In this document: piece after piece, positions 38,381 through 39,251 of the stretch | Layout: the number at the start of each line of letters is the position of its first letter | Position numbering within the stretch: the stretch's first letter is position 1 | Assembly: GCA_019779905.1 (NCBI GenBank) | Contig: JABAKE010000018.1 | Location: 1 to 64,000 of the forward strand | Source: Modestobacter lapidis | GTDB lineage: Bacteria; Actinomycetota; Actinomycetes; Mycobacteriales; Geodermatophilaceae | Reading direction: 5' to 3' | Length of the DNA stretch: 64,000 bases | Notes under the pieces: generated by a model | Told to the model about the DNA's origin: nothing | The model's database searches: none | The model's input: only the letters and a program-made list of their open reading frames with translations | Program-made: the position numbers and the translations under genes

Positions 38381-38397
38381 GTTGCGTGATGCGCAAC
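38381..38397. promoter_or_regulatory. IclR operator palindrome over the iclR start codon
   Basis: GTTGCG-TGATG-CGCAAC, a perfect 6+5+6 palindrome that contains the ATG start (38389-38391) of the regulator itself. A TANNNT -10 element (TAGTGT, 38377-38382) lies six bases before the ATG, so the message may be leaderless and the site would block its promoter. The same palindrome occurs at 39235-39251. Confidence 0.8.
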
Positions 38398-39153
38398 GAC
38401 GAGGGCGGCGTCCAGCCGGTGCAGTCGGTGGACCGGGCGGTCGGGATCCTGGAGTTCCTGGCCCGGCGCGGGGACGCCGGGGTCACCGAGATCGGCGTGG
38501 AACTGGGCGTGCACAAGTCCACCGCCTCGCGGCTGCTGGCGACGCTGGAGGCCCGGGGCCTGGTCGAGCAGTCGGGGGCGCGGGGCGCCTACCGGCTGGG
38601 CGCCGGGCTGATCCGGCTGGCCGGCGCCGGCGCCGCGCAGCTGGACGTCGCCCAGGCCGCCCGGGAGGTGTCCGCGGAACTGGCCGCCGAGCTGGGCGAG
38701 ACGGTCAACATGGCCGTGCTGGACGAGGACGCGGCGATGAACGTGAGCCAGGCCCGGGGCAGCGCGGCGGTCGCCGTGCAGAACTGGGTCGGCCGGCGCA
38801 CCCCGCTGCACGCCAGCTCCAGCGGCAAGGTGCTGCTGGCGTTCGCGCCGGACGCCGTCCGCCGGCGGGTCCTCGCGCGGCCGCTGGCGCGCTGCACCCC
38901 GGCCACGATCACCGACCGCCGGGTGCTCGACCGTGAGCTGGCCGAGGTCCGGGCACGCGGCTGGGCCGCGACGCAGGGCGAGCTGGAGGTCGGGCTGAAC
39001 GGGGTGGCCGCTCCGGTGGTCACCGCGGGCGGGGAGCTGGTCGGCGCCATCAGCGTCTCCGGGCCGGCGTACCGGCTGGACGCCGCCCGCTTCGCCGCCG
39101 TGGCCGAGCGGGTGGTCGCCGCGGCCGGGAGCGCAGGCGCCGTGCTCGGCTGA
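38389..39153 (+). CDS. IclR family transcriptional regulator
   Basis: A 254-residue regulator: winged HTH at about 8-70 (QSVDRAVGILEFLARRG, then EIGVELGVHKSTASRLLATLE) and an IclR effector domain with the HASSSGKVLLAF segment near 145 and the C-terminal GAISVSGPAYRLD near 225. IclR proteins are usually repressors of catabolic genes released by a pathway intermediate. It starts at ATG 38389 within its own operator. It lies 123 bases before the dimethylglycine oxidase-like gene, which carries the same operator, so autoregulation and control of that gene are both likely. Confidence 0.92.
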   Translation: MRNDEGGVQPVQSVDRAVGILEFLARRGDAGVTEIGVELGVHKSTASRLLATLEARGLVEQSGARGAYRLGAGLIRLAGAGAAQLDVAQAAREVSAELAAELGETVNMAVLDEDAAMNVSQARGSAAVAVQNWVGRRTPLHASSSGKVLLAFAPDAVRRRVLARPLARCTPATITDRRVLDRELAEVRARGWAATQGELEVGLNGVAAPVVTAGGELVGAISVSGPAYRLDAARFAAVAERVVAAAGSAGAVLG

Positions 39154-39215
39154 ACCGGGTGGCCGGTGAACACGGTCTTTAGACCCTTGTCCCCTGCTCC
39201 TTCCGAGTCCAGGCT

Positions 39216-39251
39216 GTTGCGTATACCGCTCAGCGTTGCGTTATCCGCAAC
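39216..39251 (+). promoter_or_regulatory. IclR operator (full palindrome plus half-site) upstream of the dimethylglycine oxidase-like gene
   Basis: GTTGCG-TTATC-CGCAAC at 39235-39251 repeats the exact arms of the site at 38381-38397. A lone left arm, GTTGCG, is at 39216-39221, 19 bases upstream (about two helical turns). The full site ends 25 bases before the ATG and just ahead of the GGAGG ribosome site at 39266-39270. Confidence 0.82.

Follow-up and report, generated by a model that had tools for sequence, protein, structure and literature searches.

The window analysed here is the whole 64,000-nucleotide stretch of Modestobacter lapidis DNA, and its central feature is an iclR-family regulatory gene followed on the same strand by genes for a dimethylglycine oxidase and a Rieske-type oxygenase, together with a small set of predicted promoter and operator elements (Table 1). 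The regulator (P0001) combines an IclR-type helix-turn-helix domain (PF09339, 55.1 bits against a cut-off of 22) with a C-terminal effector domain (PF01614, 138.1 against 24). In its recognition helix the residues VHKST and RL are invariant in 110 homologues; those that lack the exact DNA word described below conserve the helix just as well.

Table 1. Coordinates of genes and predicted regulatory elements in the window
Feature	Position	Strand	Remark
iclR-family regulator gene, 254 aa (P0001)	38389..39153	+	PF01614, PF09339
-10 box TAGTGT of the iclR promoter	38377..38382	+	first T at -12 relative to the iclR start
Predicted autoregulatory operator GTTGCGTGATGCGCAAC	38381..38397	.	symmetry axis on the A of the ATG
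Possible -35 TTGTCC	39187..39192	+	position and conservation only
Possible weak -10 CAGGCT	39210..39215	+	abuts the tandem operator; position and partial conservation only
Imperfect tandem operator GTTGCGTATACCGCTCA, predicted	39216..39232	.	19 bp from the perfect operator
Perfect target operator GTTGCGTTATCCGCAAC, predicted	39235..39251	.	exact in 8 of 9 loci
Dimethylglycine oxidase gene, 803 aa (P0002)	39277..41688	+	end-to-end alignment with 1pj5
Rieske-type oxygenase gene, 378 aa (P0003)	41701..42837	+	glycine-betaine-monooxygenase-like
Monomeric sarcosine-oxidase-like gene, presumed third enzyme	29472..30620	+	8.7 kb upstream of the operon

The enzyme genes could be assigned with differing precision. 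P0002 aligns end to end with the solved Arthrobacter dimethylglycine oxidase 1pj5 (1069.5 bits), presumably the A. globiformis enzyme, and has the full-length similarity and the FAD and folate domains of a dimethylglycine oxidase. The residues aligned with His 225, Tyr 259 and Asp 552 of the 1pj5 chain, which we take to be catalytic or folate-site residues, are identical (counted by eye), and no substantial difference between the two proteins was seen. For P0003 the nearest NCBIfam model is the glycine betaine monooxygenase GbcA (NF058607), but its score of 188.2 bits falls short of the cut-off of 670, so that the protein is GbcA-like only; its matches to solved structures include carnitine monooxygenase. 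The window operon lacks the sarcosine oxidase gene that relatives carry within theirs. The product of the separate gene at 29472-30620 is 75-78% identical to the sarcosine oxidase inside the relatives' operon, and no palindrome with up to two mismatches precedes this gene. As the operon lacks this enzyme, the presumed pathway is seen only in part under this control in this genome. The operon also has no adjoining ferredoxin and ferredoxin reductase genes; three relatives of the reductase, at 42-47% identity, are encoded in the genome.

The block of regulator and operon is flanked by two pairs of small minus-strand genes (37591-38294 and 42848-43485), which by eye resemble what we presume to be toxin-antitoxin modules; the two larger members gave no NCBIfam match at 1e-10. 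Beside the operon, the region 43779-51324 holds genes that by eye appear to encode a branched-chain-type ABC transporter, a LysR-like protein and a solute-binding protein, as well as an M24 peptidase with a creatinase N-domain. This region contains no palindrome with up to two mismatches.

The original prediction placed identical copies of the palindrome GTTGCG-N5-CGCAAC at 38381-38397 and 39235-39251, and both positions proved exact, the copies reading GTTGCGTGATGCGCAAC and GTTGCGTTATCCGCAAC. The genome-wide search that it proposed (4,784,129 bases in 383 contigs) returned two exact copies, both in the window, compared with a single copy of a reversed control word. The exact word is thus confined in the M. 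lapidis genome to two promoters, those of iclR and of the dimethylglycine oxidase gene. Copies with up to two mismatches were not enriched in either the genome (219 vs 359 for the control) or the window (5 vs 5.21 expected), and since these copies are at background, the information of the palindrome resides in the exact word. The genome contains seven one-mismatch copies, six within called genes and one intergenic; for both reasons the weaker matches were rejected as additional members of the regulon.

At the target promoter, the palindrome forms part of a larger arrangement. The original prediction had noted a further GTTGCG half-site at 39216; the motif is present, but rather than standing alone it is the outer half of an imperfect operator, GTTGCGTATACCGCTCA, that retains 9 of 12 arm bases and lies 19 bp upstream of the perfect one. 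The compound word GTTGCG-N5-CGC-N5-GTTGCG-N5-CGCAAC occurs at a single place in the genome, 39216-39251, with no mismatch, and its control gave no match at up to three mismatches. Across the window and its eight closest relatives, the perfect operator is exact in 8 of 9 loci and carries one mismatch in the ninth, and the nine spacers are all different. The paired sites start directly after the CAGGCT that may serve as -10, and the -35-like element lies 17 bp further up; in all eight closest relatives this element reads TTGACG and is one base further from the operators.

To place the 19-bp spacing in a wider context, every offset around exact palindromes was scored and the better of the two sides was taken. 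A partner with at least 8 of 12 arm bases stood at exactly 19 bp in 25 of 30 family sites and in 39 of 44 other exact sites, compared with 0.6% and 0.4%, respectively, at other offsets; 19 bp alone stands out. The partner in the family usually keeps its outer half and has a degenerate inner half, and in Streptomyces both halves are imperfect.

At the other promoter, the palindrome lies over the iclR start codon, as originally proposed; its dyad axis falls on position 38389, the A of the ATG, and its right part comprises the codons ATG CGC AAC. The TAGTGT read originally as the -10 box is kept as TAGNGT in the window and all eight closest relatives (9/9), and in the window its last two bases are shared with the operator. 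A start-centred operator with at least 10 of 12 arm bases was found in 59 of the 80 wider actinomycete loci (the best 80 of 177 relatives) and in 9 of 30 family loci, for which scrambled arms gave maxima of 0 and 0.033. The site is mostly absent from a second clade of the family, and 19 of the 30 family loci score 6/12 or less.

The distance between promoter and start codon was examined in 80 unique upstream sequences with at least 9 of 12 arm bases, 10 from the family, including the window, and 70 from the wider set. A TANNNT with its first T at -12 is present in 78 of these, against an average of 0.0045 for each position farther upstream, and a second register at -10 is present in 34; as the last T of TANNNT is also an operator base, only the TA is independent of how the sequences were selected. 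A TANNNT about 12 bp before the start codon is the signature of bacterial leaderless genes described by Zheng and colleagues (PMC3160421), and the window iclR has its first T at this place. With the operator axis on the start codon and TANNNT at -12, iclR is probably a leaderless gene whose transcription would begin at or near the start codon and whose first three codons would also be operator sequence.

In the window the start-site operator has no tandem partner at 19 bp (3 and 5 of 12 arm bases). Elsewhere, a partly conserved GTTGTTTAC was observed at -27 to -19 of iclR, 19 bp upstream of the start-codon operator, with column frequencies of 0.47-0.74 in the 80-sequence set, which is mostly Streptomyces (e.g. 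L019). It may be a degenerate tandem partner of the start-codon operator. The window lacks this element (3/12 arm bases).

The distribution of the word was determined in 96 genomes of the family drawn evenly from a larger group; a set of 36 genomes was left out of the statistics because it had been picked partly for palindrome-bearing loci. These 96 genomes contain 47 iclR matches at E<=1e-60 (in 43 genomes) and 50 exact palindromes (in 40 genomes), compared with 9 copies of the reversed control word. Most of the exact copies (37/50) are no more than 200 bp from an iclR orthologue, and 32 of the 47 iclR genes have such a copy. Five of the remaining 13 are 13-104 bp upstream of called starts of dimethylglycine oxidase (L156, L159, L160), betA (L152) or betB-betA (L161) genes, and the other eight, a number close to the control count of nine, comprise six inside called genes and two intergenic copies, one between a CoA-transferase-like and a LysR-like gene (L154) and one upstream of no gene (L157). 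The original prediction had contrasted clustering before methylamine genes with scatter unrelated to genes, and the outcome strongly favored clustering, with 42 of 50 copies at iclR, dimethylglycine oxidase or choline-oxidation genes.

An exact copy within 200 bp is absent at 15 of the 47 family iclR orthologues. Among five of these that were inspected, three (L104, L105, L114) keep a copy with one mismatch, one (L106) a copy with two, and one (L120) none with fewer than three. At three others (G008, G031, G033) an exact copy lies 2-8 kb away, before betB-betA or dimethylglycine oxidase genes. In another genus of the family, the exact palindrome at L161:5645-5661 precedes a betB-betA operon that adjoins a BCCT transporter gene; an iclR homologue lies about 2 kb away, and this operon is likely to be a further target.

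The operator anatomy of the family given above was read from 30 of the 47 iclR matches. In seven of the eight closest relatives (L126-L133), the gene order is iclR, dimethylglycine oxidase, monomeric sarcosine oxidase and Rieske oxygenase; the contig of the eighth (L131) breaks off within the sarcosine oxidase gene. Judged by enzyme family, the operon of these relatives would encode three enzymes that together convert betaine to glycine. In the second clade the exact word is found in 6 of 11 loci, between iclR and a ferredoxin/ferredoxin reductase gene pair, with the Rieske gene on the opposite side and, in most loci, genes for serine hydroxymethyltransferase and the sarcosine oxidase beta-subunit following. 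One locus of this clade (L136:7338-8827) has its ferredoxin and ferredoxin reductase genes adjoining the Rieske oxygenase locus.

Beyond the family, we examined the best 80 of 177 relatives by similarity to P0001 (L016-L095). This set is mostly Streptomyces and its members are non-independent; because it was drawn by P0001 similarity with peptide patterns that include the P0001 N-terminus, it is biased and phylogenetically clumped. Genes in relatives were called with a simple codon-usage caller, so their starts are approximate, and they were named mostly by similarity to a few representatives scored against NCBIfam. An exact copy was present in 43 of these best 80 of 177 loci, and in 40 of the 43 it lies no more than 250 bp from the start of a gene that shares 79-100% identity with the choline dehydrogenase of L019, whose own score of 864 bits exceeds the equivalog cut-off of 732. 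The 40 comprise 37 Streptomyces loci and others from Acrocarpospora, Actinacidiphila and Streptantibioticus, and the three copies outside this group precede dimethylglycine oxidase (L017), iclR (L061) and ferredoxin reductase (L080) genes. In the other 37 of the best 80 loci, the closest match to the word near iclR differs at one position in 16, at two in 17 and at three in 2, and the last 2 have no match with up to three mismatches. Relatives of Rieske oxygenase, ferredoxin, ferredoxin reductase and mycothiol-dependent formaldehyde dehydrogenase genes are often nearby. The word thus marks different points along apparently one pathway. No relatives of the regulator were found in viral contigs among 33 candidate stretches.

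Several properties of these sites are familiar from the IclR family. Suvorova and Gelfand (2021, PMC8222616) describe a group 1 GTT-11-AAC subgroup with a 17-bp palindrome, tandem sites at 18-22 nt, site centers peaking at -3 to +1 of gene starts, and small local regulons. The window sites are likewise inverted repeats with GTT and AAC ends 11 bp apart, with a 19-bp tandem at the target promoter, a start-centred site at iclR and a small local regulon. They differ in arm position 4, which is G (partner C) at both sites instead of the Y (R) of the consensus GTTYCRY, and not every site keeps the W3 center. At start-centred sites of the 80 unique sequences, this fourth position is T at 0.46 and G at 0.45. 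The nearest word in Table 1 of that paper is the operator of the Comamonas terephthalate regulator TphR, which has the same TTGCG-N5-CGCAA core but an outer T instead of G and belongs to another pathway and another group of organisms. The main text of PMC8222616 contains neither betaine nor sarcosine, although the present regulator may be among its 181 groups. Among the open-access papers listed in our searches, none describes the regulator or its word, as judged by title and the opening of the abstract. The best NCBIfam match of P0001 is BhcR, an IclR-family regulator that in Paracoccus likewise adjoins its targets but controls the beta-hydroxyaspartate cycle and whose DNA binding is weakened by glyoxylate (PMC11323563). 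Assignment of P0001 as a BhcR equivalog (NF045644) was rejected (179.3 bits against a cut-off of 350).

Taken at both places, over the iclR start and before the neighboring operon, the word is almost certainly the docking site of the regulator. From the sites, spacing, conservation and enzyme families read in the sequence, we infer binding, repression, cooperativity, an inducer and the substrates of the enzymes. We consider it probable that the palindromes are operators of the protein encoded by the flanking iclR, and that this protein represses its own gene and betaine demethylation until released by a metabolite. A dimer on the start-site operator would span the -10 box, transcription start and start codon and silence a probably leaderless transcript. 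On the target promoter, two dimers would bind side by side, 19 bp apart, on the imperfect and perfect operators just downstream of the weak -10, and so block the operon of dimethylglycine oxidase and Rieske oxygenase. Release of the repressor would follow when its C-terminal domain binds a metabolite of the pathway (glycine betaine, dimethylglycine or a near product), allowing the stepwise demethylation of betaine to glycine; betaine or dimethylglycine as inducer would fit the gene arrangements seen. The weakness of the target -10 counts against this explanation.

The alternative that survives best, although we regard it as rather unlikely, is that the regulator binds these operators but activates the demethylation operon, or acts as an autorepressor at its own gene and an inducer-dependent activator at the target. 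The IclR family includes activators and dual regulators (PMC8222616), and the best NCBIfam match (179 bits), BhcR, has been proposed to be dual (PMC11323563). In 14 of 16 inspected loci of the Streptomyces type, moreover, the tandem pair is upstream of TAGCAT, a -10-like element of the betA strand, and not on it. Against this, both operator groups in the window are on or downstream of the presumed -10, and since such a position at both promoters is suited to blocking, repression is our first choice.

It is very improbable that the sites belong to another regulator common to these genes, with iclR a mere neighbor. IclR binding to the sites is itself a prediction, and of the 53 family genomes without a strong iclR match five have one exact copy each, one of them (L156) upstream of dimethylglycine oxidase. 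Yet the word tracks iclR, being present in 35 of 43 genomes with the regulator and 5 of 53 without (p = 2.5e-13, which, given the kinship of the genomes, is no test on independent lineages). The arm and the tandem spacing moreover match the IclR family (PMC8222616), and in many loci the start codon of iclR itself is covered by the word or a near copy.

We give equally little weight to the explanation that the start-codon copy is a by-product of a conserved N-terminus (Met-Arg/Ser-Asn) and no operator at all. The right arm does overlap codons 2-3, and 73 of the 80 unique sequences open with ATG/GTG-AGC-AAC or ATG-CGC-AAC. The non-coding left arm, however, is conserved too (G 0.99, T 1.00 and T 0.95 at -8 to -6, and C 0.97 at -4); these figures are inflated because the 80 sequences were chosen for likeness to the word, and the unselected comparison with scrambled arms agrees with them. 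Chance recurrence of a short word, with which the background level of copies at up to two mismatches would agree, has a negligible probability, as both exact copies in 4.78 Mb fall in the window, 42 of 50 copies in the 96 family genomes are at functionally related promoters, and the clustering at iclR in the family and at choline dehydrogenase genes in the wider loci contradicts it, in keeping with the original judgment that chance hardly accounts for the repeat.

We also lean, with less assurance, towards a composite autoregulatory element found across several genera of actinomycetes. Its stretch of about 21 bp (TANNGTTNCGNNRTGMGCAAC) would combine the -10 box, the operator, the transcription start, the start codon and the first three codons. 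The symmetry axis of the operator would coincide with the first base of the start codon of a leaderless gene, and the operator would thereby determine the N-terminal residues of the regulator itself. Usually doubled at a 19-bp pitch, the same word would control different choline-betaine-glycine steps according to lineage.

These findings represent a well-supported addition to the known IclR operator systems. They provide an exact operator word and a probable function for a widespread actinomycete regulator that lies beside genes of glycine-betaine catabolism, and the word allows target genes to be located by sequence in other genomes. The start-codon operator, if true, would be a compact form of autorepression for a leaderless gene, with the same bases subject to both coding and regulatory constraints.
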